DNA of 64,000 bases, taken from IMG/VR virus record IMGVR_UViG_3300005096_000005, positions 1-64,000 of that record; one strand, given 5' to 3'. The position numbers were made by a program, and so were the translations under genes. The DNA is from a virus. Shown here one piece after another: positions 7,863-40,831 of the stretch. Below the pieces are notes generated by a model. The model was not told where the DNA came from. It searched no databases and saw nothing but the letters and a program-made list of their open reading frames with translations. Position 1 is the first letter of the stretch. Each line of letters starts with the position of its first letter.

Positions 7863-9331
7863 GTAAACGACGCTCGATTACAGAGATATGTCAGGACGGA
7901 GACATAGAAGCACTGAAACTGGTGGTTATCCATCAGCTTCAGGGAGACTTCTTCCATCTGTCTCACTTTCTTGGTGTACACTCGTTCAGATTCAGCAATG
8001 ATATCGCAACAGCCTGTATCACCAAGGATAGAGACTGCTTGCTGAACCCTGAATTCATTATTAACAACGCGAATACACCTCAGAAGCTGACTATGGTAGT
8101 GTGTCACGAAGTTTATCACAAAGTCCTTAAACATATTGAGATCCCCTCCAACTATGTAGAGGATATTGCAATGGATGCTGTCATAAACGCTATGCTGTGT
8201 CAGGTTTTTCATGGTGGACGTTACTGGGCGTTCTTCAAGGACTATTACAGTCCCGATATCTTTCCAAACTTTATCCTCCGTCCGCATAGCAAGATGTCGA
8301 CAATGTCTTTTATGGACAAAAGGTATTACAGAGTTCTTTACTATAAGAAGGATGTAAACCATATTGATGAGGTGCATCATGACCCAAATGTTACAACGAA
8401 AAGAAACTGGGGCCTAACCTATGAGGACGTAGTAGATTGGCTATCCAGAATCAGTGAAGACCAGCTCGATGAAGCCCTCAAAAAGCTCGATGAACTGGAC
8501 GAGAGTAGTGGGGTCCCTCTGCCGGGTGGCAGCATTCTTATTGGAGACCATAAAGCTGGTAAGATCACAAGAACAGAAGAAGATGACATAGACGAGTTGT
8601 CTGATATCATTAAAGAGGCAGGCGAAAAAGTCAGGACTAAGTTCGCAGGCTCTGGTGAAACGCTCTTCGATGAGATGCTGGACCTCCTTGAGGCAAAGAA
8701 AAACTCGAAGTTGGCCGAAGCATTCGACAAAGCTCTGACGCAAAGTGTAACCAGTAAGGTAACAAGCACTATCCGGTCTGCCTTTCCTGATCTGCCTGAA
8801 CGGAGTGTGGTTCCGCTTGGCATAGGCCGCAAGGAAGTAGTAATGCTCGCGGCAGGATTCCTCCCGGTGTTCTGGAAGACTGTTGTCCCGGACATCAATA
8901 GTGGGGCAGTACATGTATATATAGACGTGTCGGGTTCCATGGGAGAATGGGTTAAGTGGTGCTATGAACTATGTCTCAGCCTTGCAGACTGGTTGCATGA
9001 ACCTGTCCACTTGTTCAGTAACAAGGTAGTGGACATATCGATACAACAGCTCAGGAGAGGAAAGGTGAGTACTACGTACGGCACTGACTTCGACTGTATT
9101 TGCGAGCATATGGTCGCAAACGACGTAAAGAAGACAGTCATCATAACTGACGGATATGCATCCATGTCCGCAGAGAACCAGAACATTCTAAAACAACAGG
9201 ACAGACACCTCTTCACAGCGTTCATTCCCAATCGCTGGGGTAGAAAGGTGGGAACAGATAATGCTCATGGGATTCTGAAAGAGATATCCTATAAGTACTG
9301 GGAGCTTACTGAAGAGGACAAGATTGTTTAA
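7859..9331 (+). CDS. VWA-domain protein with zincin-like HExxH motif (DUF2201-like)
   Basis: 490 residues. The N-terminal part has VVCHEVYHKVLKH near residue 83, an HExxH metallopeptidase signature. The C-terminal part has a von Willebrand A domain with MIDAS motif DVSGSMG near residue 357 and ITDGYAS later. This two-part layout matches the DUF2201 (putative metallopeptidase plus VWA-like) family, usually paired with a MoxR ATPase. The start overlaps the MoxR stop, so the two are translationally coupled. The substrate is unknown. Confidence 0.82.
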   Translation: MSKRRSITEICQDGDIEALKLVVIHQLQGDFFHLSHFLGVHSFRFSNDIATACITKDRDCLLNPEFIINNANTPQKLTMVVCHEVYHKVLKHIEIPSNYVEDIAMDAVINAMLCQVFHGGRYWAFFKDYYSPDIFPNFILRPHSKMSTMSFMDKRYYRVLYYKKDVNHIDEVHHDPNVTTKRNWGLTYEDVVDWLSRISEDQLDEALKKLDELDESSGVPLPGGSILIGDHKAGKITRTEEDDIDELSDIIKEAGEKVRTKFAGSGETLFDEMLDLLEAKKNSKLAEAFDKALTQSVTSKVTSTIRSAFPDLPERSVVPLGIGRKEVVMLAAGFLPVFWKTVVPDINSGAVHVYIDVSGSMGEWVKWCYELCLSLADWLHEPVHLFSNKVVDISIQQLRRGKVSTTYGTDFDCICEHMVANDVKKTVIITDGYASMSAENQNILKQQDRHLFTAFIPNRWGRKVGTDNAHGILKEISYKYWELTEEDKIV

Positions 9332-14655: not shown

Positions 14656-14856
14656 ATGTCAGGAACAAGAATAATTGTAAGAATGGAGCGGGAAACCAAA
14701 GAGCTCACTGTGAATCTCCCAACGGACTTCACTGACGAGGGTCTCAGGGAGATCATCGCCTCGGAACTTAATTGCGACACCGGTCGGCTGCAGCCTCTTA
14801 TCATCGAGCGAACACCGAATGGTATCACTCTTCGCGAGGAGGCACCGTTCGGATAA
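14656..14856 (+). CDS. Hypothetical small protein, first gene after the strong promoter
   Basis: 66 residues preceded by GAGGTGA. NLPTDFTDEGLREIIASEL suggests a small alpha/beta fold. It is the only protein gene between the strong promoter and 16,776, so it may be a leader gene of the RNA operon. No family recognised. Confidence 0.55.
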   Translation: MSGTRIIVRMERETKELTVNLPTDFTDEGLREIIASELNCDTGRLQPLIIERTPNGITLREEAPFG

Positions 14857-14863
14857 GCATAAC

Positions 14864-14943
14864 GGGTTGGCGCAGGGCGGCGCGAGTTTTCAGGGAAACC
14901 AGGGACACCTGAAGACTATCCGGGATCACGACCCGGGCAACCC
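14864..14943 (+). ncRNA. Cloverleaf-like RNA that is not a standard tRNA
   Basis: Closing helix GGGTTG/CAACCC; D-arm-like hairpin GCGC-AGGGCG-GCGC (14870-14883); a long hairpin AGTTTTCAGG/CCTGAAGACT (14885-14917) in the anticodon-arm position with a 13-nt loop; and a T-arm-like hairpin CCGGG/CCCGG (14920-14936) with a seven-base loop ATCACGA. The layout is that of a tRNA, but the T-loop lacks TTCRA and the anticodon arm is doubled in length. A tRNA-mimicking Y-RNA-like molecule is an attractive reading, given the TROVE protein at 23030. This is inference from folding by eye. Confidence 0.5.
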
Positions 14944-14949
14944 ACTTTC

Positions 14950-14978
14950 TGTCGCACACACGCAGTAAGCGTACAAAC
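14950..14978 (+). other. 3' half of the tRNA-intron element (before tRNA at 14980)
   Basis: Contains TGTCGCAC, joint ACACG, CAGTAAGC and the invariant UACAAAC, ending one base before the tRNA starts. TGTCGCAC can pair over 8 bp (one G-U) with GTGCGGCA at 15097-15104, and AGTAAGC over 7 bp with GCTTACT at 15083-15089. The two halves of the element therefore surround the tRNA in reversed order. Confidence 0.7.
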
Positions 14979-14979
14979 A

Positions 14980-15055
14980 TTGGAGTTAGCTCAAGTGGTT
15001 GAGCATCAGCCTATTAAGCTGAAGGTTGCTGGTTCGAGCCCAGCACCCCAAACCA
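14980..15055 (+). tRNA. tRNA-Asn-like, anticodon AUU, flanked by intron halves, encodes CCA
   Basis: Acceptor TTGGAGT/ACCCCAA (one A-C mismatch), D-arm GCTC/GAGC, anticodon stem TCAGC/GCTGA, loop CTATTAA (anticodon AUU, codon AAU), T-loop TTCGAGC. The 3' end reads A-CCA, so CCA is encoded; most tRNAs here do not encode it. A34 in an Asn anticodon is unusual, and a normal tRNA-Asn(GUU) exists at 18893. The gene lies between a 3' and a 5' half of the shared intron element. Confidence 0.8.
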
Positions 15056-15082
15056 GTCCCGGGGGACATAAAACACCCATCC

Positions 15083-15104
15083 GCTTACTACACCAGGTGC
15101 GGCA
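15083..15104 (+). other. 5' half of the tRNA-intron element (after tRNA at 14980)
   Basis: GCTTACT, then ACACCAG, then GTGCGGCA. These correspond to the first helix strand, the ACC linker and the hairpin 5' strand seen in the intact inserts. Their partners lie upstream at 14950-14970. It runs directly into the next tRNA at 15110, sharing the 10-base direct repeat GCACACACGC with the upstream half. Confidence 0.65.
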
Positions 15105-15109
15105 CACAC

Positions 15110-15262
15110 GCCCGCGTAGCTCAGCTGGCTAGAGCACCTCATAGTTTTCTTAGCTTTGAGCACCAGGTACGGTAAATCTCCGGAGACATCGTACATACGC
15201 CCCAGGCTTACAAACTTACCCTTAGGAGGGGGCGGTCGCAGGTTCGAATCCTGTCGCGGGCA
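15110..15262 (+). tRNA. Interrupted tRNA, anticodon UAG (reads CUA)
   Basis: Exons 15110 to about 15139 and about 15220 to 15262. Acceptor GCCCGCG/CGCGGGC, D-arm GCTC/GAGC, anticodon stem CCTCC/GGGGG after joining, loop CTTAGGA (anticodon UAG), T-arm GCAGG/CCTGT with TTCGAAT. The roughly 80-nt insert falls within the 5' strand of the anticodon stem, so no tRNA can form without its removal. By anticodon it would be Leu, but the variable loop is only 5 nt, unlike tRNA-Leu. Exact splice sites are ambiguous by a few bases. Confidence 0.8.
15152..15215 (+). other. tRNA-intron element in the UAG tRNA
   Basis: AGCTT (15152-15156) pairs with AGGCT (15204-15208, one G-U); CACCAG linker; hairpin GTACGGT/ATCGTAC (15167-15194); joint ATACG; then UACAAAC (15209-15215). 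Its hairpin loop holds TCTCCGGAGACATCGTA, nearly identical to the insert at 15703, so these two copies are recently related. Confidence 0.8.
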
Positions 15263-15270
15263 CTTAACAT

Positions 15271-15344
15271 TGCGAGGTAGAGCAGCAGGTCAGCTCGGAT
15301 GTCTCATAAGCATCAGGTCACGGGTTCGAATCCCGTCCTCGCAA
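15271..15344 (+). tRNA. tRNA-Met (CAU)
   Basis: Uninterrupted. Acceptor TGCGAGG/CCTCGCA, D-arm GAGC/GCTC, anticodon stem GATGT/GCATC, loop CTCATAA, T-arm ACGGG/CCCGT with TTCGAAT. Anticodon CAU; initiator, elongator or Ile2 identity cannot be decided by eye. Confidence 0.92.
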
Positions 15345-15433
15345 TAGAAACATCGGCAGTTAAAGGGAGGAAGAAAAGACCCGGAGACTGTGAACCTTGA
15401 TAAGTATATACCAGTCCAGTAATTGCTTTTTAT

Positions 15434-20080: not shown

Positions 20081-20266
20081 ATGCGGGCGCAACTGAACTG
20101 CCCGGCCTGTAATAGTATGAGGGAACACAAAGTACTCGTCACAGGCAATGGCAGCAACATCGTAACGTGCCTCTGCTGCTTTACAACACGGAGCATAAAA
20201 GAGGCAGAGGTATGCCAGGGTAGCTCAGATAGTAAAGCTCCAGCTTCTGGCACTAAGAAAGGATAG
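20081..20266 (+). CDS. Zinc-ribbon protein with a tRNA-derived C-terminus
   Basis: 61 residues from ATG 20081 with AAGGAGGTG upstream. CPAC near residue 6 and CLCC near residue 33 form a zinc ribbon. The last 18 or so codons lie in a truncated tRNA-like sequence (20213-20252: GGTAGCTCAGATAG, with TGCCAG pairing CTGGCA), so the C-terminus looks newly made from a tRNA remnant. Confidence 0.6.
   Translation: MRAQLNCPACNSMREHKVLVTGNGSNIVTCLCCFTTRSIKEAEVCQGSSDSKAPASGTKKG
20213..20252 (+). pseudogene. Truncated tRNA remnant (5' half only)
   Basis: TGCCAGGGTAGCTCAGATAG resembles an acceptor strand plus the TAGCTCAG start of a D-arm, followed by CCAGCTTCTGG in the anticodon-arm position. No T-arm follows. 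TGCCAG and CTGGCA can still pair. It is read as coding sequence by the gene at 20081. Confidence 0.5.
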
Positions 20267-20270
20267 AAGA

Positions 20271-20459
20271 ATGAACGAAGTAGATATGGCAAGAAAGATG
20301 ATTCAGGAACTCGATGACGGTGTCGAAAACAATGACTTCGAAGTCAGCGACTGGGAGTGTGACTTTCTGGACAACCTCAGGGATCACCTGGAGACAGCAA
20401 ATCATCTGAGCGACGCTCAGTACAATAAGCTCGAAGAGATTCATAGAGCAAAGATATAA
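20271..20459 (+). CDS. Small acidic helical protein
   Basis: 62 residues preceded by AAAGGA. Highly acidic, two likely helices ([15 protein letters not shown] and [12 protein letters not shown]), with one Cys and Trp between. No family recognised. Confidence 0.55.
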
Positions 20460-20494
20460 GGAGAGAACAGTATGGATATTGCAGAGATTGGATC

Positions 20495-20566
20495 GGGCGT
20501 GTAACTCAGCGGTAGAGTACGGCGCTGATAACGCCGGAGTCACTGGTTCAATTCCAGTCACGCCCA
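20495..20566 (+). tRNA. tRNA-Ile (GAU)
   Basis: Acceptor GGGCGTG/CACGCCC, D-arm CTC/GAG, anticodon stem CGGCG/CGCCG with loop CTGATAA, T-loop TTCAATT. Anticodon GAU. Confidence 0.95.
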
Positions 20567-20592
20567 TTAGTACAAAGAAAGGAAGTAACAGT

Positions 20593-20796
20593 ATGGCAGA
20601 GAGCGGTACAGTAAAATGGTTCGATGGAGCAAAAGGTTTCGGCTTTATCGAACGCAGCGATGGCGAGGATGTCTTTGTGCATTACTCAGACATTCAGGCT
20701 CAGGGTTATAAGACTCTCGACGAAGGTCAACGAGTCTCCTTCGACATTGCAGAAGGACCCAAAGGGGACAAGGCTGTCAACGTCATTCCGATGTAA
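20593..20796 (+). CDS. Cold-shock-domain protein (CspA family)
   Basis: 67 residues, the normal CspA length. [15 protein letters not shown] contains RNP1 and DVFVHY contains RNP2, the two single-strand nucleic-acid-binding motifs of the five-stranded beta barrel. AAGGAAG precedes the ATG. Such proteins act as RNA chaperones; here it sits inside an array of heavily structured RNAs, which it may help fold. Confidence 0.93.
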
Positions 20797-20802
20797 GCAG
20801 CC

Positions 20803-20877
20803 GGGCCTTTAGCTCAGCCCGGTCAGAGCAGCGGACTCATAATCCGTAGGTCGGAGGTTCAAATCCTTCAAGGCCCA
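20803..20877 (+). tRNA. tRNA-Met/Ile2 (CAU)
   Basis: Acceptor GGGCCTT/AAGGCCC, D-arm GCTC/GAGC, anticodon stem GCGGA/TCCGT with loop CTCATAA, T-loop TTCAAAT. Second CAU tRNA of the window. The next ATG starts 3 bases after its end. Confidence 0.94.
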
Positions 20878-20879
20878 CT

Positions 20880-21170
20880 ATGTTATTCACAATAGGTAAA
20901 GAGAAACCCTACGACGAACTCCTTGTCAGACACGGAAGGTTAAGGAAGGGCATAGGCGGCTTTGCGTTCGTTAACAAAGCAGAAGCCCTCGAAGAGGCCA
21001 GGCGTCTGACTGCAGGAAAGAGTAAGATAGTGGGTCTTCCAAAAGGAGCGTACTCAGTATACCTGATGGAGGGTAACGTGGGCGATGTCATACCGCGCAA
21101 ACATACCGGGTCCGACTCTACATATCCAAGCCTAAAGTTCCCACGGAGGATAATCCGGAAGGTCAAGTGA
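20880..21170 (+). CDS. Hypothetical protein, start abuts tRNA-Met
   Basis: 96 residues, basic and Gly-rich (RKGIGGFAFVNKAEALEEAR, PKGAYSVYLMEG). The ATG is separated from the tRNA by only CT, with no ribosome-binding site outside the tRNA, as at 16776 and 17785. No family recognised. Confidence 0.55.
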   Translation: MLFTIGKEKPYDELLVRHGRLRKGIGGFAFVNKAEALEEARRLTAGKSKIVGLPKGAYSVYLMEGNVGDVIPRKHTGSDSTYPSLKFPRRIIRKVK

Positions 21171-21180
21171 TTGGAAAGAC

Positions 21181-21205
21181 TCCAATAAGTAATAGTCTTA
21201 TTGGA
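21181..21205 (+). other. Stem-loop, 9 bp
   Basis: TCCAATAAG (21181-21189) pairs perfectly with CTTATTGGA (21197-21205) around a 7-base loop. No U-run follows, so it is not a typical terminator. TTGGA just upstream offers an alternative pairing with TCCAA. It sits in the short gap between two genes. Confidence 0.5.
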
Positions 21206-21243
21206 AGTTCAGTATCAAACTACCATTAAGGGTGGAGATAGAA

Positions 21244-21432
21244 GTGACATACAGTTGTTCAGATACAGTAATGGACCTGGCGAATAAAGTGTGCGGCCGG
21301 TGCCCATGCCTACAAGAATGCTCAGAACGGGAAAGCTCGGAAACACTGACAGCATGCATTATTGAATTGCTTGAGGATCATGTTGGGCTTCCGATAGAAT
21401 GGCCAGATACAAAAGAGATTCCCGAGACATAA
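21244..21432 (+). CDS. Small cysteine-rich protein
   Basis: About 62 residues from GTG 21244 (GGAG 6 nt upstream); an in-frame GTG at 21232 is an alternative. CGRCPCLQEC near residue 18 plus later Cys suggests a metal site. Function unknown. Confidence 0.5.
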   Translation: MTYSCSDTVMDLANKVCGRCPCLQECSERESSETLTACIIELLEDHVGLPIEWPDTKEIPET

Positions 21433-21433
21433 A

Positions 21434-21506
21434 GCCCCGGTAGCTCAGCGGATAGAGCAGCCGGCTTCTACCCGGCGTGTCGGAGGTTCGATTCCTTCTC
21501 GGGGTA
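21434..21506 (+). tRNA. tRNA-Arg (UCU)
   Basis: Acceptor GCCCCGG/TCGGGGT with G-U ends, D-arm GCTC/GAGC, anticodon stem GCCGG/CCGGC with loop CTTCTAC, T-loop TTCGATT. Anticodon UCU. Confidence 0.93.
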
Positions 21507-21519
21507 TGGAGGAACTATT

Positions 21520-21687
21520 ATGACAAATACTTGTGCAAGAGGTATCCAGGACGGAGAGGGGCCGAACGCTCCTATCAGTTGCAGTGCCCTGACAGAGAAA
21601 GTTGACGATCAGAACATCCGGAAACCCTGTCCTTTCAGCAGAGATGGCAGAATCCAGCGGATGTGTGGCATGTATGAAAAGAAGTAA
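21520..21687 (+). CDS. Small cysteine-rich protein
   Basis: 55 residues, preceded by GGAGG. Cysteines at TNTCARG, ISCSAL, RKPCPF and RMCGMY give a regular four-Cys pattern that could bind a metal. It fills the gap between two tRNAs. No family recognised. Confidence 0.6.
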   Translation: MTNTCARGIQDGEGPNAPISCSALTEKVDDQNIRKPCPFSRDGRIQRMCGMYEKK

Positions 21688-21688
21688 C

Positions 21689-21761
21689 GCGGTGGTAGCT
21701 CAATTGGCAGAGCGCTGGCCTTCCAAGCCAGAGGTTGCGGGTTCGAGGCCCGTCAACCGCT
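21689..21761 (+). tRNA. tRNA-Gly (UCC)
   Basis: Acceptor GCGGTGG/CAACCGC with one mismatch, D-arm GCTC/GAGC style, anticodon stem CTGGC/GCCAG with loop CTTCCAA, T-arm GCGGG/CCCGT with TTCGAGG. Anticodon UCC. Confidence 0.92.
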
Positions 21762-21763
21762 AC

Positions 21764-22004
21764 GACATGTGGAAGTAGCTTAGAGCCAAACAACACGTGG
21801 ATGGCCCCTCGTTGTAAGACTGCAGTGTGCTACTCATATCACATGATACGGGATGGACCTGCAGCGTTCGAGTATGAAGCGTGGCTCCGCACAGGACAAA
21901 GGCTCAGTAAGACCTCGGGACGTCTCGAGTGTAATCGGAACACAGGGCCACCGATACCGAGGGAAGTTACCCAAACTACAACGGGCAACGTGCGGCCTCA
22001 TGTC
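21764..22004 (+). ncRNA. Large branched structured RNA (about 240 nt)
   Basis: GACATG (21764-21769) pairs with CATGTC (21999-22004), closing a region between two tRNAs that has no credible protein gene. Inside, AGTAGC (21774-21779) pairs with GCTACT (21829-21834) around ACAAC/GTTGT; further short helices occur, such as GACC...GGGACGTC. It lacks tRNA T-loops and the signature of tmRNA. The length is too great for a spacer and suggests a distinct RNA, possibly a partner of the TROVE protein. Folding by eye only. Confidence 0.4.
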
Positions 22005-22007
22005 AAA

Positions 22008-22080
22008 GCGGCGATAGCTCAACCGGTAGAGCACCAGTCTGCCAGTCTGGAGGCCGTGGGTTCGACTCCCACTCGTCGCT
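22008..22080 (+). tRNA. tRNA-Gly (GCC)
   Basis: Acceptor GCGGCGA/TCGTCGC, D-arm GCTC/GAGC, anticodon stem CCAG/CTGG with loop CTGCCAG, T-arm GTGGG/CCCAC with TTCGACT. Anticodon GCC; the innermost stem pair is T-T. Confidence 0.9.
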
Positions 22081-22102
22081 CTATATTGAAGGGTCTGGTA
22101 AT

Positions 22103-22231
22103 ATGAGTATCCTTATAAAGATATGTATCCTGTTATTCTGGATTCTGTCCTCGATTGCTATTTGGCGAGCGGTTGACAGCGTTACGTCCATACAAGAAGA
22201 GCAGGACACTTCAGATGACGCGAAACTTTAA
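22103..22231 (+). CDS. Very small membrane protein
   Basis: 42 residues. Residues 2-20 (SILIKICILLFWILSSIAIW) form one hydrophobic transmembrane segment, followed by a polar, acidic tail. It sits between two tRNAs; the start lacks a strong ribosome-binding site. Could be a holin-like or accessory membrane peptide; function unknown. Confidence 0.5.
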   Translation: MSILIKICILLFWILSSIAIWRAVDSVTSIQEEQDTSDDAKL

Positions 22232-22232
22232 T

Positions 22233-22304
22233 AGCCTCGTAGCCAAGAGGTAAGGCGTCGGGCTTTGGACTCGATATTCGCTGGTTCGAATCCAGCCGGG
22301 GCTT
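22233..22304 (+). tRNA. tRNA-Gln (UUG)
   Basis: Acceptor AGCCTCG/CGGGGCT, D-arm GCC/GGC, anticodon stem TCGGG/CTCGA with loop CTTTGGA, T-arm GCTGG/CCAGC with TTCGAAT. Anticodon UUG. Confidence 0.93.
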
Positions 22305-22315
22305 TGGAGAGAAAC

Positions 22316-22633
22316 ATGAGAGTCGACATTAAGGAGATACTAAGAGATCCTATCAAGAAACGTAAGCTATTCACAGGAGTAATCAGGTTTCTTCACTGGA
22401 TAGGGTCTGATTGTAGAGGCGAAATTACACAGGAGCAGGCCGAGGATATCTACGACCTGACGTTCGACGAGAAAGTCCCTGTCGACTTTCCTGCTCCTGT
22501 AGAATGGACAGCAAACACAGACATGAAGTTTACATCACACGAGCGACAACGTATAATAATGTCCTACAAATATAACAGGCCATGGGTATCCCATAGGCCA
22601 GATATAAAGGAGGTGAACCCAGATGGGAAGTGA
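22316..22633 (+). CDS. Hypothetical protein
   Basis: 105 residues from ATG 22316 with TTGGAGAG upstream. N-terminal RVDIKEILRDPIKKRKLFTG and a Trp/Phe-containing middle. No recognised family. The stop lies inside the start of the next gene. Confidence 0.55.
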   Translation: MRVDIKEILRDPIKKRKLFTGVIRFLHWIGSDCRGEITQEQAEDIYDLTFDEKVPVDFPAPVEWTANTDMKFTSHERQRIIMSYKYNRPWVSHRPDIKEVNPDGK

Positions 22634-22895
22634 CTCCGGATCATCAGGAAGTTCGACAAGCAGGAGAGGCCAGCCGATAGATGGCGACGGCAGCGGTCTT
22701 GAAAACCGAAGGTCCTTAACAGGACGTGTGGGTTCGACCCCCACCCTCTCCGCTACTTGTGAACATGACTGGGACTTCTGGCATGATATCTCTTTCGTAA
22801 CCCAGACAGACGGAAACATGGGCGTATGCGTAAAGATGATGTGCAAGAAGTGTGGCGTTACCAAACATACTAACCCATTGTGTGTTCACGCATAA
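22623..22895 (+). CDS. Zinc-ribbon protein whose frame runs through tRNA-Ser
   Basis: 90 residues from ATG 22623, with a strong GGAGGTGA ribosome-binding site. Residues 14-44 are read from tRNA-Ser (22663-22752). The C-terminal 45 residues look like a real small zinc protein (CEHDWDFWHD, then CKKCGV and a final Cys/His). No other start lies between the tRNA and this domain. Processing of the tRNA would cut the message, so protein and tRNA compete for the transcript. Whether the protein is made is uncertain. Confidence 0.5.
   Translation: MGSDSGSSGSSTSRRGQPIDGDGSGLENRRSLTGRVGSTPTLSATCEHDWDFWHDISFVTQTDGNMGVCVKMMCKKCGVTKHTNPLCVHA
22663..22752 (+). tRNA. tRNA-Ser (UGA)
   Basis: Class II. Acceptor GGAGAGG/CCTCTCC, anticodon stem CGGT/ACCG with loop CTTGAAA, long variable arm GTCC/GGAC, T-arm GTGGG/CCCAC with TTCGACC, G73. 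Anticodon UGA. Lies within the open frame 22623-22895. Confidence 0.94.
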
Positions 22896-22896
22896 A

Positions 22897-22983
22897 GGAA
22901 GGTTGACAGAGAGGTTAATCGTGCCTGATTGCTAATCAGTGCGTCGTGAAAGCGACACGGAGGTTCGAATCCTTCACCTTCCG
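22897..22983 (+). tRNA. tRNA-Ser (GCU)
   Basis: Class II. Acceptor GGAAGGT/ACCTTCC, anticodon stem CTGA/TCAG with loop TTGCTAA, long variable arm GTCG/CGAC, T-arm GGAGG/CCTTC with TTCGAAT, G73. Anticodon GCU. Confidence 0.94.
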
Positions 22984-23029
22984 TTACCTACTACCAGGGA
23001 CGATAGGATCGTCCAGAAAGAGGTGACAC

Positions 23030-24553
23030 ATGACAGACATGTCAAGAGAAGAAAGAGATTACAGGACACAGATGCTTAATGCAGTCCTGGTTACACCCCA
23101 CAGAGATCGCAAAGGTACCAAGAAAGACACAAGTGCTCACCAGCATACCCGTGAGACATTACTCAGTTACCACAACGAACTCCTGCAGAATGACCCCCTT
23201 TTCTATGGGAAACTCGGATACTGGTATATGCAGAATGGAAGCATTCGGGATCACATGGAAGCCTTTGTAGGCAACATGTTCCTGAGTCCGGTTCCCGAGC
23301 ATCGTGACGCAGCTCACGTGATCGTATCGAAAGGAGATCAGTTTGCTCCTTACCAAATTCCCCGGCTTATTGACTTCGTCGAGAAGGATCAGGGTCGAAA
23401 CATGCCCCGTTGCATGAAAAAGGCCATCCATCGTTGGATCGATCAACTCGAATCAGACACAGCCAGGTTTGATGGTGCCGCATTACATGCTCGCAAGCAT
23501 CTGAAGTACGTTGCCAGAAAAACACGGAGCCACCTGTCTGAAAGGTCCAGGGGTATTCTCTTCACTAAAGAATATCCTGAAGGTTCAGTGTTCGAAGCAC
23601 TGAGACGCATGTCTAATGAGGACATGGAACCGCAGGAAGTCGCAGAGACTATCGTCAAGCATAAGATTCCGCTGAGGATAGCAGGTGCGTATATGAAAGC
23701 GGTTACACCTACTGTCCTCTGCGCAGTAGTTCATAATATGTCGTCCCAGGAACTCATCAACAACGTGGGCTGGCTGCAGGATCGCGGAGCCCTGGACAAT
23801 GAAGACCTCAAAGCTCTGGTCCAGGAAAAGCTGAAGAAGGCAAGGAAAGACAAAAACGTGGCCGCCATGAAAACAAGGACGGCTATCAGTACAGGTCGTG
23901 TCCATGACGAGAGTATCATGGAACAACTCCAGGAAGTAGGAGACGAACAGCTCAAAGCCAAAGGACGCATCCGCAGAGATACACTCCTGTCAATCGACAA
24001 GTCAGGATCAATGTACAATTCAATTCGCCTGGGAGTGGAGCTCGGGTCACTTATTGCCCAGTCACTGGAAGATGGCGCAGCGCTTTATGCGTTCGCGTTC
24101 GACACAGCTCCGTACGAGCTGGGCAACCCGGGGCCAAGAATGTCTGACTGGGAGAAGGCTCTCAAGTTCATCAAAGCAGGCGGAGGGACAGCATGCGGTG
24201 CTCCCACGACAGTCCTTACCAGGAAGGATATTATGGTAGAGAACATCGTCATCATATCTGATGGTGGTGACGGTTGCTCTCCGTTCTTCGACAACGCCTA
24301 CACAGAATACGTGAACAAGACCGGAGCAAAGCCTCTTGTCACGTTCATTGCTATCGATACTGCAGGCAATATACCGGGTAGACAGACACGTCTCGGGAAT
24401 GAGATCGAAGATCTGAAGATTGAACACAGAATCATCGACTTCAAAGGAGACAAGTACAGTCTTCCAGACGTCATTACCATCCTGTCCAGGCCGTCAATGT
24501 TTGATCTCGTTATGGAGATCATGGCTATCGAGCTGCCCAAACGTGCGGCATAA
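23030..24553 (+). CDS. TROVE-domain (Ro60/Rsr-like) RNA-binding protein with VWA domain
   Basis: 507 residues, GAGGTGA upstream. The N-terminal 270 residues follow the TROVE repeat pattern: FYGKLGYWYMQNGSIRDH, GRNMPRCMKKAIHRWID and PTVLCAVVHNMSSQELINNV. The C-terminal part is a von Willebrand A domain with DKSGSM near residue 324 (MIDAS). Ro60 proteins bind Y RNAs and misfolded small RNAs; bacterial Rsr works with tRNA-mimicking Y RNAs in RNA decay. Its position at the end of the tRNA array, which also holds several cloverleaf-like RNAs that are not tRNAs, points to a Ro-Y RNA system carried by the phage. The RNA partner is inferred. Confidence 0.82.
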   Translation: MTDMSREERDYRTQMLNAVLVTPHRDRKGTKKDTSAHQHTRETLLSYHNELLQNDPLFYGKLGYWYMQNGSIRDHMEAFVGNMFLSPVPEHRDAAHVIVSKGDQFAPYQIPRLIDFVEKDQGRNMPRCMKKAIHRWIDQLESDTARFDGAALHARKHLKYVARKTRSHLSERSRGILFTKEYPEGSVFEALRRMSNEDMEPQEVAETIVKHKIPLRIAGAYMKAVTPTVLCAVVHNMSSQELINNVGWLQDRGALDNEDLKALVQEKLKKARKDKNVAAMKTRTAISTGRVHDESIMEQLQEVGDEQLKAKGRIRRDTLLSIDKSGSMYNSIRLGVELGSLIAQSLEDGAALYAFAFDTAPYELGNPGPRMSDWEKALKFIKAGGGTACGAPTTVLTRKDIMVENIVIISDGGDGCSPFFDNAYTEYVNKTGAKPLVTFIAIDTAGNIPGRQTRLGNEIEDLKIEHRIIDFKGDKYSLPDVITILSRPSMFDLVMEIMAIELPKRAA

Positions 24554-24993
24554 TGGCAAAGTGTCATATCTGTAATAACGAAGTACCTGGTGCCAGACAG
24601 GGAACTCGCTACTGCGAAGCCTGTAAGGCTCAGCATGCTATTGATATACTGGTGGCCCGGTCTGCGGACCGGGCTGCCTTACTTTACACGAATGGGACGC
24701 TCGACAGGATGCAGCGTCTCGGAGATCTTCTGATTACAGGTCAGAGTATGTCCGAGGCGGCGCGTCGCTTAAACATATCCAGAACACGTCTCTATGACTT
24801 CGTTGACACATATAATCTCACAGACTACGTGCACGTATGTCAGGCTATGGGAAAAACATCAAACCTCGATGTATCAAAAGAGATGGATATTACTCGTAGG
24901 GAGCTCCTCGCTTCAGCAATCAAGTGTGCGATTGAAGGTGACATGAATGGATATAGGAAGCCTGATGAGCAAGATGAAGGCGTTGGACCATGA
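24553..24993 (+). CDS. Zinc-ribbon and helix-turn-helix protein
   Basis: 146 residues, starting on the last base of the TROVE stop. CHICNNEV near residue 4 and CEAC near residue 22 form a small zinc ribbon. Residues 69-86 (GQSMSEAARRLNISRTRLYD) are a helix-turn-helix. A DNA- or RNA-binding regulator coupled to the TROVE gene. Target unknown. Confidence 0.65.
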   Translation: MAKCHICNNEVPGARQGTRYCEACKAQHAIDILVARSADRAALLYTNGTLDRMQRLGDLLITGQSMSEAARRLNISRTRLYDFVDTYNLTDYVHVCQAMGKTSNLDVSKEMDITRRELLASAIKCAIEGDMNGYRKPDEQDEGVGP

Positions 24994-25843
24994 TTTACTA
25001 ACCACAGAGTTCATTGCCCCATACATTGGAGGACCTATCATCACGCGTATCGCCGGCATCGTCTATACATTCAGCCCCTATAGAATGAGCAGAAACAGGA
25101 ATGCATATCCGTGGCCAAAAACAGACCATGGAATATTCCGGTGGAAACCTATAGATACCAAGCGAGCTATCGCGCAACCGACAGGCCGGCTGGCATACCA
25201 TGAGTATCGTAAGTTTCTTGAACACTTCCCTATTCTCAAGGTAATCGTGATCCGTCGCCATGAAGGACAGTGGCTTACAGTTCCATGGAATGCTGAAGAA
25301 GTCTATACACGTTTTGGTATCGGTGGAGTACTTCCTGTTTACCTGTGCGATAGAGTAGAGCGCTTTGATGTAGTTAACGTGGCGTTTACTCCGGAACTGA
25401 TCTATATGGACCGGGCGAGACTGAGCGCTGGCTGGTTGCGGGAACTGAAAAGAACATGCTCCGGAGAACAACTTCCCGCCGACCCATACAACGTCCCGGG
25501 ACTTCCTCCGGAAGGCAGAACAGCTCTTGACTATCTGCTGAAGCGAGATGAGGAGTTGAAGATAGCTCTTGAAGAGCAAAGAATAAGAACAGCTCTTGGC
25601 CACATGGATGCTGAACTTGTATCCTACATGGATCAGGGGCCAAATCAGCTCGTCGTTAGATGGAAGTACCGTGGCATTGAGTACCGTACAGTAGTACAAA
25701 AGGACAACCTGGAAGTTGTATCCGCAGGTATATGCCTGAGTGGTCAGGACCGTAAGTTTGATCTAACGTCAATCGTCTCTGTTATGCGGGAACGTCAGGA
25801 TAGATGGGGCGATGATCACTTTAATCAACACGATCTTTATTGA
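24947..25843 (+). CDS. Hypothetical protein
   Basis: 298 residues (292 if the ATG at 24965, with AGGAAG upstream, is used). Aromatic-rich N-terminus (YTFSPYRMSRNRNAYPWPK), later helical charged segment (KRDEELKIALEEQRIRTALG). Overlaps the previous gene by 47 bases. No recognised domain. Confidence 0.6.
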   Translation: MDIGSLMSKMKALDHDLLTTEFIAPYIGGPIITRIAGIVYTFSPYRMSRNRNAYPWPKTDHGIFRWKPIDTKRAIAQPTGRLAYHEYRKFLEHFPILKVIVIRRHEGQWLTVPWNAEEVYTRFGIGGVLPVYLCDRVERFDVVNVAFTPELIYMDRARLSAGWLRELKRTCSGEQLPADPYNVPGLPPEGRTALDYLLKRDEELKIALEEQRIRTALGHMDAELVSYMDQGPNQLVVRWKYRGIEYRTVVQKDNLEVVSAGICLSGQDRKFDLTSIVSVMRERQDRWGDDHFNQHDLY

Positions 25844-28998: not shown

Positions 28999-29640
28999 AT
29001 GTTTAACCATGAACGAGACTATCGCGGTACCGGAGCGGAAGAACGTATCAGCCGCCAGCGTATCGTAGTGATGGGTTGTGGAGCACTGGGTTCTGGAATC
29101 GCTATAACTCTTTGCCGTATGGGGTTCAGGTTTATCGACCTTGTAGACAATGGCAGAGTAGAAGATCAGAACCTTGGCACACAACAATATGATATGCGAG
29201 ACGTAGGAGCAATGAAGGTACACGCTCTCTGGCAAAAGCTATATGATATAGTCGGCGATGGCCCGGGAGAACTCAATGTCTTTACACAGGACATTACGAA
29301 GAAGCGCCTCAAAGTATCAGACCATACGGTTATCATCATAGACTGCTTTGATAATGCCGCAGCCAGAAGTACTATCGAAGACCGTTACTCTATGAATCCG
29401 ATCATCCACGCAGGAATGGGCGATGGACTGTCCGAAGTAACCTGGCATCCGAGGTATAAAGTACCTACTGATCCGCCAGGGACAGAGACAGACCAGTGTG
29501 AGTACCCGCTGTCAGCTACCCTGGTGCAGATGACGGTAGGTATGGTATGTGAGGCTATAACTCGACGTGTTATTGAAGGAAAGGAGTATGATCTCAGGTT
29601 TACCCTGGGCGACTTTAATATCTCTGCACAACAGTATTGA
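28999..29640 (+). CDS. ThiF/E1-like adenylyltransferase
   Basis: 213 residues. VVMGCGALGSGIAI near residue 20 is the nucleotide-binding glycine loop; LVDNGRVEDQNLGTQQYD follows, matching the D-x-D...NL-RQ region of ThiF/MoeB/E1 enzymes; IIDCFDNAAARS is the next conserved strand. These activate the C-terminus of a ubiquitin-like protein. No CxxC zinc pair is present. No ubiquitin-like partner or JAB protease was seen in this window. Confidence 0.8.
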   Translation: MFNHERDYRGTGAEERISRQRIVVMGCGALGSGIAITLCRMGFRFIDLVDNGRVEDQNLGTQQYDMRDVGAMKVHALWQKLYDIVGDGPGELNVFTQDITKKRLKVSDHTVIIIDCFDNAAARSTIEDRYSMNPIIHAGMGDGLSEVTWHPRYKVPTDPPGTETDQCEYPLSATLVQMTVGMVCEAITRRVIEGKEYDLRFTLGDFNISAQQY

Positions 29641-38730: not shown

Positions 38731-39243
38731 ATGGCAAAAACACCACTCGTTTTATGTGAAGGAGCGTCTCCCGCACAGGCCCTAAAGCGTGAAGAGGAAT
38801 GGTACAGAGACATTGTAAAACCTCTTGCGGATCGATGGGAGCCCAAGATGTGCGCCATCAAGGTACCAGAAAAGCCGACACAGGCAGACCGGCAAAGAGC
38901 AGCATTCCAAATGGACCTTGTGTATGGAGACGTTGTTATTGAACTCCGGAAGGCCAAAGCAGTTATAGGCAAACTGGAAGAAGGCATCAAGTACAGAAAG
39001 GCTTATCACAAGAGGAGTGCTCGTGGTAAGACTGCAACGGAAAAGGATGGCGAAGCTATGCTGGAAGTAGCAAAGGAGGAACTTCCAGATGCGTTATTCG
39101 CAGCACAGGCAAAGTACAACTACGTCAGAGGCGTGGAAAACAGACTGTTATGGAAAAGGGACATGCTCAGGCTGGGTGACGAAAGACTTTCATTCGGTCG
39201 TCGGACTCCTTCTCCTGCTACTCCTGACCACTTTCGCAAGTAA
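38731..39243 (+). CDS. Hypothetical protein
   Basis: 170 residues, GAGGTGA upstream. Strongly helical and charged (VVIELRKAKAVIGKLEEGI, KRSARGKTATEKDG). The last 67 bases overlap the subtilase gene in another frame. Unknown. Confidence 0.6.
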   Translation: MAKTPLVLCEGASPAQALKREEEWYRDIVKPLADRWEPKMCAIKVPEKPTQADRQRAAFQMDLVYGDVVIELRKAKAVIGKLEEGIKYRKAYHKRSARGKTATEKDGEAMLEVAKEELPDALFAAQAKYNYVRGVENRLLWKRDMLRLGDERLSFGRRTPSPATPDHFRK

Positions 39244-40831
39244 TTGTGGTGGAGGAGGTAGCTCTAACGCGATTGCCTCGCAAGTACAGCAAGAAGAACA
39301 GACGGCAATCACAGCAGCACCCGCAGGGAGGATAGCACATGACACCGTCGCCGGATACGATTATGCCGAAGGACAGTATATGGTCAAAGCCAAAGAAGCC
39401 GACCTGGCAGGATTGTCCATTATTGGACGAAACACAGTCCTCGGCATGTTTCAAGTTCAAGCCGATAATGCCAGTGTGTTCTCCAACAGAAACGTCGAGT
39501 TCGCAGAGCCGAACATCATACGGCAGCGAGTCACAAATTATAGCGAGCCCTTCGAAGGAACTGAGGCGCGCCTATACATCGATACTCCGGTACTATCCCG
39601 GATTGCTATCATCGATACTGCTGTCAAAAGCACGCCGGACACAGCAGACATCAAGTCGGTTTCGTTCATTGGAATCCCGGATACAGAAGAGCATGGAACA
39701 CATGTCGCCGGAATTATCACAGCAGACTCCAACGACTACGGCATCACGGGGTCGGTTCCAAACGTTCGAGCGATCAATCTTGTGGTATGTAACACATACG
39801 GGTGTCCTATATCCGCGGTCAGCGCGGCAATCACTTATGCCGCTCACAATGGATTCGATGTCGTTAATCTTAGCCTGGGAGGGTGGGGAAGTACTCAGTC
39901 CGAACGAGCTGCTATTGACTACGCTACCGCCCATGGAGTTCTCATCGTGGCTGCAGCAGGGAACGACGGAGCAAACGCTTCAGGGTTCTATCCATGCGCT
40001 TACACCGAAGTCGTCTGTGTTGGTGCCGTTGATTATCTCGGTCAACGAGCTAGTTTCTCTAACTACGGACCTGCCGTTGATCTTTACGCTCCCGGGGTTA
40101 ACATCGTATCTCTTGGAACCGAAACGTCAACAGTCGCAATGTCCGGAACCTCAATGGCAGCCCCATTCGTCACTGCAGCAGCAGCTCTCTGCAGAGATCG
40201 TGAGGAAACACTTGACAATGCCAGGACAAGATTGCTATCATCATACAGCTCAGCCTCGGGGCTCAGGGTCATTGACTTTAGCAAAATCGATGGAATCTCA
40301 GAAGCAGATCCACCGGACACAATAATATCGAGCGCGTATGGTGAATCATCATACGTCTATATCGGAGAGTCAATTGGGATTTGGATTAACTACAGGGCGA
40401 CACCGGATACGGCATCTATCGAGATCCCATGTGGAAGCGTCTCAGTTAGTGTCTGGCCAAACAGATTTATATGGGATACCACAGGATGTACAGCAGGAAT
40501 CGCAAGCCTCACGGCGGTTGCGTCCTCAAGTAGTACAACCCACCGTTACCCATTCACCGTTGAAGTCAGAAACAAGGAAGGCATGCCAGACCCACCGTCC
40601 GAAGTAACATTCACTGTTCATGGAACTGTCGCAAGAGACGGTTTGCTGGCAGCAGGAGTTCACATACAGGTAATCGTAAACAGCTCAGTCCTATATACAG
40701 CTACCAGTTTGTCTGATGGCTCGTTTAGTGTCAGTGTCTCTAACTTTCCAATAGGAACGCCCATCCTGGTTGGCGCTGTAAGTAGTGATGGAGAAGGATA
40801 TACCACGAGTTTTGAGGTTGAAGATGAGTAA
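39176..40831 (+). CDS. Secreted subtilisin-like serine protease (S8)
   Basis: About 551 residues from GTG 39176. A signal peptide (HSVVGLLLLLLLTTFASNC) ends in a Cys that could be lipidated, then a Gly/Ser linker. Catalytic triad: AIIDTAV (Asp, near residue 146), HGTHVAG (His, near 175), SGTSMAAP (Ser, near 323), plus the N of AAAGND. After residue 370 come Ig/beta-sandwich-like domains (EVTFTVHGTVARDGLLAAGV). Secreted proteases are rare among phage genes; it might act on the cell surface or in superinfection. Start choice depends on the signal peptide. Confidence 0.85.
   Translation: MTKDFHSVVGLLLLLLLTTFASNCGGGGSSNAIASQVQQEEQTAITAAPAGRIAHDTVAGYDYAEGQYMVKAKEADLAGLSIIGRNTVLGMFQVQADNASVFSNRNVEFAEPNIIRQRVTNYSEPFEGTEARLYIDTPVLSRIAIIDTAVKSTPDTADIKSVSFIGIPDTEEHGTHVAGIITADSNDYGITGSVPNVRAINLVVCNTYGCPISAVSAAITYAAHNGFDVVNLSLGGWGSTQSERAAIDYATAHGVLIVAAAGNDGANASGFYPCAYTEVVCVGAVDYLGQRASFSNYGPAVDLYAPGVNIVSLGTETSTVAMSGTSMAAPFVTAAAALCRDREETLDNARTRLLSSYSSASGLRVIDFSKIDGISEADPPDTIISSAYGESSYVYIGESIGIWINYRATPDTASIEIPCGSVSVSVWPNRFIWDTTGCTAGIASLTAVASSSSTTHRYPFTVEVRNKEGMPDPPSEVTFTVHGTVARDGLLAAGVHIQVIVNSSVLYTATSLSDGSFSVSVSNFPIGTPILVGAVSSDGEGYTTSFEVEDE

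Follow-up and report, generated by a model that had tools for sequence, protein, structure and literature searches.

A predicted Ro60-type phage protein and a neighboring array of tRNA chimeras that share a covarying stem

In bacteria (Deinococcus, Salmonella, mycobacteria), the Ro60-fold protein Rsr is encoded beside YrlA RNAs (RF02553), which combine a two-part Ro-binding stem with a tRNA-like domain. Phages also encode Ro60 proteins, some with (putative) Y RNAs nearby. Examples are Thermus phage phiLo (PDB 9l5y, 9kop), actinophages with a 'Ro-like RNA binding protein', and Listeria phage CKA15, which has a TROVE protein and suspected Y RNAs (PMC12282133). TROVE proteins have been reported in jumbo phages (PMC7824862) and in Borg elements (PMC11208441). 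The Ro site of vertebrate Y RNAs is described as a helix of seven pairs that has a bulged C and a bulge of three bases (PMC4726728). Here we describe a predicted TROVE/Ro60-type gene and a set of unusual tRNA-like RNAs in a 64,000-nucleotide stretch of viral DNA (the window), which is positions 1 to 64,000 of the 170,138-base IMG/VR virus record IMGVR_UViG_3300005096_000005.

The window system resembles Rsr/YrlA in its pairing of a Ro60-fold protein with nearby RNAs of the same two-part design. It differs in having many RNA copies per genome, modules that are real tRNAs, and several positions at which the stem is grafted; the stem sequence is distinct and has a UACAAAC tail, and a capped stem can sit inside a tRNA. 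A linked beta-grasp/ThiF pair, the lack of a detected RtcB and the lack of an Rfam match also set it apart. Compared with known phage Ro60 proteins, the window protein is a distant branch, with an expanded RNA array. One of the RNAs is also similar to the circularly permuted tRNA genes of algae and archaea, in that the T-arm half precedes the 5' half and a short spacer joins the acceptor ends. In contrast to those genes, the pairing of its outer ends forms a Ro-type stem and not a splicing motif, and at least one sister RNA in the window has no anticodon arm. We found no account of Ro stems grafted at varied tRNA positions in arrays in the open-access literature searched, which does not include several key Y-RNA papers. 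Within that literature, this agrees with an earlier note on this DNA, which to its author's knowledge called the combination with interrupted and permuted tRNAs undescribed.

Predicted protein and its relatives

We found that the open reading frame at 23030-24553 (+ strand, ATG start, 507 amino acids, boundaries exact) encodes what is, judging from its predicted structure, a Ro60-type protein. Six aligned phage proteins were used for an AlphaFold model (pLDDT 81, pTM 0.72), which has a helical ring of the HEAT type and, after it, a VWA domain, as in Ro60 and Rsr. The model superposed on Ro60, Rsr and the phiLo Ro60 over 425-446 residues (Z 18-21.6). Ro60 was the top structural match (Z 21.6 over 446 residues), and D. 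radiodurans Rsr matched with Z 20.5. Structures ranked below Ro60 and Rsr matched the VWA domain alone (Z ≤ 14.6). The MIDAS motif, D-x-S-x-S, is D323-K-S325-G-S327, and the D and both S residues are invariant across seven relatives. The earlier note had recognized TROVE repeats and a MIDAS-type VWA domain and had proposed comparing a predicted structure with Ro60; the helical ring that it expected is present in the model, and both assignments stand.

Sequence searches were weak and mutually consistent, and they point to a very divergent protein. A Pfam scan of the 507 amino acids gave no match at E < 0.01, and PHROG 850 ('RNA-binding protein') matched weakly (1.8e-7). TROVE chains in PDB were matched at 4.8e-6, and a profile built from seven relatives reached human RO60 (PDB) at 6.4e-8. 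The vWA_Ro60 model scored above its cut-off in one relative, L003 (related loci are given as L numbers).

Relatives of the window protein are all from metagenomic, unannotated sequences, and the records may be incomplete. Among 50,697 phage records, the sole relative found by tblastn was LR756511.1 (595 kb, 38.9% identity). The source paper of that record, which we take to be PMC7162821, contains no mention of TROVE or Y RNA. Scans of viral contigs gave five and then nine more distinct loci, bringing the total to 16 phages including the window. The window protein is 29-42% identical to six aligned relatives. A Deinococcus Rsr fragment matched 342 phage records, mainly from Mycobacterium and Streptomyces phages; together with the solved structure of the phiLo Ro60, this agrees with the earlier statement that phage copies have been reported. 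The window protein belongs to a branch separate from the classical phage Ro-like proteins. A pattern search of 84,980 bacterial genomes confirmed no relatives of this branch, but the Deinococcus fragment was also unmatched there, so this result is not evidence of absence.

A covarying stem on tRNA and tRNA-like bodies

We found seven RNAs at 14950-16458, each made of a tRNA or tRNA-like body and one copy of a shared stem (the Ro stem). In this stem, two helices (an outer one and a second one) are separated by a small internal loop, one side of which reads [ACG]CC[ACT]G, and the tail is UACAAAC. In a gapless alignment of the seven copies, 89.3% of cells were paired. There were 16 double changes, compared to 5.9 in shuffled alignments, and none of 500 shuffles reached this number.

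A sister form of the stem, ACUU[GA]GAC ... GUC[CU]CC ... UACAAAC, is present in 26 copies in three related phages. These copies were picked by motif and not by pairing. In both sets, the copies that enclose a tRNA and those that stand alone were rearranged before alignment so that their two halves ran in a common order, joined by a GAAA linker; pairing across the intervening tRNA was therefore tested, although the rearrangement was our own choice. In the 26 copies, 92.9% of cells were paired (73.4% when shuffled), with 85 double changes (29.2 when shuffled; 0/500 shuffles). In controls with the register slid, pairing was no more than 49%. Covariation thus shows that the shared Ro stem is real.

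The stem is found near TROVE. Strong matches to the sister-form model in the 595-kb and 390-kb records were all within a few kb of TROVE, and every match to the window-form model in the 170-kb window record was at 14942-16399. A model built from the window copies alone also detected arrays in other phages (7e-8, 6e-6 and 1.3e-5). When viral contigs were scanned with an exact pattern for one form of the stem, there was no match. We also looked for orphan T-arms, that is, T-arm motifs outside ordinary tRNAs. The window (at 15238-16435), L001, L002, L003, L004, L006, L010, L011, L016 (minus strand), L019 and L022 each have at least two near TROVE, and L012 has two or more downstream of TROVE. One was found in L023, and none in L005, L013 (little upstream sequence) or L017. 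Arrays adjoin TROVE in most of the 15 related phages.

The window RNAs, all on the + strand, are of three types. In the five of type A, a stem capped by a short loop is placed in the D-loop, between the D- and anticodon arms, or in the anticodon region. The RNA at 15110-15261 has the acceptor stem, D-arm and T-arm of a tRNA, and its Ro stem (15151-15215) lies in the region of the anticodon arm. The RNA at 15662-15813 (stem 15701-15765) has no consistent anticodon arm once the stem is removed. At 15885-16017, the stem (15901-15953) replaces the D-arm and there is an additional hairpin. At 16067-16200 (stem 16098-16149), a UUCG hairpin is found where the anticodon arm is expected. The RNA at 16322-16458 has its stem (16347-16399) within the D-loop, and the tRNA reads Ser (TGA). 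In the single type B RNA (14950-15106), the Ro stem surrounds a complete tRNA (ARAGORN: Asn, anticodon ATT, 14980-15055). In the single type C RNA (15434-15586), it surrounds a circularly permuted tRNA, in the order T-arm, capped acceptor, D-arm, anticodon arm. Type C is also found in L006 (8905-9060, folded) and, by reading, in L022. Type S, the stem alone (about 65-75 nt), is found in L001 (10608-10671, 11207-11277) and L004 (6707-6776).

The earlier note had described these RNAs as interrupted and permuted tRNAs. One copy is indeed permuted. The others have a stem inserted in or enclosing the tRNA, and one lacks an anticodon arm and one a D-arm. To call them "interrupted tRNA genes" is incorrect, since in at least one body the anticodon arm is replaced by a UUCG hairpin; they are better described as Y-RNA/tRNA chimeras. 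The array at whose end the note had placed the TROVE gene is real, but the gene ends the whole tRNA cluster, about 6.5 kb beyond the odd RNAs. Between the two, at 16604-22983 (+ strand), are mostly ordinary tRNA genes and small open reading frames, and the last tRNA (22897-22983) is just before TROVE. ARAGORN found 19 tRNAs across the window.

Several other RNAs in these phages are unusual. A tRNA-Asn with the unusual anticodon ATT (A at position 34) is in or beside a Ro stem in L011 (5517-5587) and L022 (5151-5226), as in the type B RNA of the window. Non-coding stretches in the window tRNA cluster (21762-22004, 16205-16322, 15830-15885 and 16500-16600) might contain further RNAs; three of the four were folded and look structured, and no Rfam family matched. 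In L001, at 8690-8960, half of a Ro stem (CCGUCCCCGAC...UACAAAC) precedes a stretch that agrees with bacterial 23S rRNA at 17 of 18 positions (ACGGTCCTAAGGTAGCGA region); 210 bases further on, there is agreement at 12 of 13 positions with the conserved 23S stretch that comes next. A blastn search against E. coli gave no match to this RNA, and a short direct comparison did match. It is possibly an rRNA-mimic module in place of a tRNA. Far from the cluster, at 784-859 in the window, is a tRNA with anticodon CTA (labeled Pyl by ARAGORN). This is possibly an amber suppressor, in which case TAG may be translated as an amino acid during part of the phage life cycle.

Stem in the TROVE mRNA leader and linked genes

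The TROVE mRNA leader contains a hairpin whose core matches that of the array stems (22986-23025, + strand; ACCAG-GGACGAU-AGG-AUCGUCC-AGAA). Its outer stem pairs with the Shine-Dalgarno sequence AGAGGU. Outside the array, the only + strand match to the window motif was at 22993-23014, 16 bases before the ATG. With strict settings (at least 7 pairs, loop of at most 8), 0.05 matches are expected per 64 kb. Loose settings gave four minus-strand matches in the window, and the leader hairpin is therefore notable for its position. Similar arrangements were found in three relatives. The sister-form model matched immediately upstream of the TROVE start codon in L001 and L004, and in L012 an ACUUG hairpin precedes the TROVE ribosome-binding site.

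The position of this hairpin over the ribosome-binding site, in the window and three relatives, suggests that TROVE is autoregulated. It is also the best evidence that the TROVE protein binds the stem. A protein that bound the stem would repress itself, and the hairpin is a probable autoregulatory site.

Three other genes are linked to TROVE, and their order relative to the RNA array is variable. A small beta-grasp (ubiquitin-like) protein is encoded at 14656-14856 (+ strand). Proteins of this kind (66-85 amino acids, predicted beta-beta-alpha-beta-beta) are near TROVE in 13/16 loci. The nearest match is to ubiquitin-like proteins (a weak Foldseek match, E 0.17), and the C-terminus is FG in most and not GG. 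In L005 (9767-11740), a phage without a visible RNA array, the beta-grasp protein is fused to the N-terminus of TROVE in one open reading frame. A 298-amino-acid protein with no known fold (24947-25843, + strand) and a ThiF/E1-like adenylyltransferase (28999-29640, + strand) follow TROVE in 14/16 phages; the exceptions are L023 and L019, a locus at a contig end. Scans of the beta-grasp and 298-amino-acid proteins gave no convincing Pfam, PHROG or NCBIfam match. PRTRC_ThiF scored 31-46 bits, compared to a cut-off of 144.75, and on these grounds we did not assign the cassette to PRTRC. Elsewhere in the window, 39089-40831 encodes a Subtilase-family (S8) peptidase (PF00082, E 1.8e-39).

Y-RNA-like function and alternative explanations

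We think it likely that the locus encodes a Ro60 protein with cognate, Y-like RNAs, and that the protein controls its own synthesis. As the earlier note had suggested, the Ro60-fold protein and the odd RNAs are very probably linked in function, because the same stem is present in arrays beside the gene in most of the related phages and in the TROVE leader. A single account, an RNA adaptor stem that bears tRNA bodies, covers all types. Types B and C share the layout of YrlA, a Ro-binding stem plus a tRNA-like domain. Covariation and folds give types B, C and the stand-alone copies the lower and upper helices, split by an internal loop, of a Y RNA. The tRNA-like domain is at the other end, except in the stand-alone copies of L001, L004 and L006. 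Three actinophage Ro loci used as controls have YrlA-type RNAs with the T-arm before the D-arm; in two of them the Rfam YrlA model scored 36 and 33 bits, below its gathering score. Some copies of these control RNAs have ACUUG, which we take to be the Ro site of vertebrate Y RNAs, beside the lower stem.

Several results weigh against this interpretation. The Rfam Y-RNA and YrlA models match neither the window nor L001, and RF00019 gave no match in the window record and one sub-threshold, uninformative match elsewhere. Homology is therefore unproven, and we claim only that the RNAs work like Y RNAs. The stem motif varies, from ACUUG...CCCC (L001, L004, L006) to ACC[AC]G (window) and a third form (L003). 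Most other loci have no clear hairpin in the TROVE leader. L005, L017 and L023 have no clear array, indicating that TROVE can occur without it.

The stems might instead be short introns, carried by tRNA genes that are disrupted or permuted, whose excision yields functional tRNAs; TROVE would then serve as an RNA chaperone of that process. Consistent with this notion, several copies become plausible tRNAs, each with a real anticodon, once the stem is deleted: these are in L001 (Tyr, Lys, Arg, Met), in L004 (Gln, Lys, Arg), in L006 (Met, Phe) and in the window (Ser). The permuted copies, moreover, look like the permuted tRNA genes of algae and archaea. However, although removal gives a complete tRNA for several copies elsewhere, in the window it does not do so for 16067-16200, which cannot form an anticodon arm, or for 15885-16017, which has no D-arm; the anticodon of 15662-15813 is inconsistent. 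The type S copies in L001 and L004 have no tRNA that could be restored, in type B copies a full tRNA is left intact, and the hairpin is also in the TROVE mRNA leader. In addition, no group I or II intron family was matched, RtcB was not found in the seven records searched, and the RNA ligase family PF09414 was found in two only. Given the missing arms, stand-alone copies and leader hairpin, we reject introns as the general explanation, and overall we consider this explanation unlikely.

RtcB is a frequent operon partner of bacterial Rsr. The TROVE protein and its RNAs might help to repair cut tRNAs, as in an rsr-yrl-rtcBA operon. The protein fold is the same, the partner RNAs are tRNA-like, and RNA repair has been proposed for jumbo-phage TROVE in a review (PMC7824862). 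In contrast, RtcB (PF01139) was not found in the seven records, which may be incomplete, whereas the control was positive in nine genomes. PF09414 was found only in W01 and G003 and not in the window record (possibly incomplete). A search of the window record for PF09511 gave no match, but its control matched nowhere either, so this search was uninformative. The failure to find RtcB in these seven records disfavors an RtcB repair operon, which we regard as improbable, and gives no support to the RNA quality-control role suggested in the earlier note.

The notion that the stems are selfish insertion elements, spreading among phage tRNA genes and unrelated to TROVE, fits their many copies at different tRNA positions, but is very improbable given that they are confined to the neighborhood of TROVE in the whole records searched, are conserved, with compensatory changes, between distant phages, and are present in TROVE leaders.

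If the RNAs do act as Y-like partners of a Ro60 protein, the 23030-24553 product would bind dedicated phage RNAs on the exterior of its ring, as Ro60 does. These RNAs would act like bacterial Y RNAs through their common two-part stem, conserved internal loop and UACAAAC tail. The rest of each RNA, a tRNA, permuted tRNA or tRNA mimic, would be held at differing positions of the stem. Surplus TROVE protein could bind the core hairpin over its ribosome-binding site and stop its own translation, as suggested by position and sequence in four phages. The tRNA modules might act as bait, as decoys, or as a gate on the ring, and in this way the particle would capture tRNA-acting factors, such as host defense nucleases that cut tRNA. 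The beta-grasp protein, 298-amino-acid protein and E1-like enzyme would also belong to the cassette, and they may modify the particle or regulate it.

Published ideas fit parts of this model. A role as an anticodon-nuclease decoy has been proposed for YrlA (PMC7790460), tethering of PNPase in Deinococcus is cited in PMC12282133, and the host systems PARIS (PMC11455837) and Septu (PMC13096335) cut tRNA during infection. Provided that the rest of the model holds, a decoy or bait function is the most probable of the roles considered for the tRNA modules, though we do not hold it with confidence. A function as a tether or gate is a more tentative possibility, and one in tRNA delivery or maturation is unlikely. 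The complete model, in which a Ro60 platform with a repertoire of real, permuted and fake tRNAs on an adaptor stem is autoregulated through that stem, controlled by the ubiquitin-like and E1-like proteins, and serves as a multi-bait decoy against host tRNA nucleases, is speculative.

These results also call for caution in annotation, as tRNA finders call some of the chimeras ordinary or intron-containing tRNAs. The phages provide many natural variants of one Ro stem on tRNAs, along with a likely autoregulatory site; this makes it possible to test directly how the stem is recognized and what the tRNA modules do. The answers would bear on the function of bacterial Y RNAs and on why Y RNAs mimic tRNA, and may tie Ro60 to the conflict between phage and host over tRNA.
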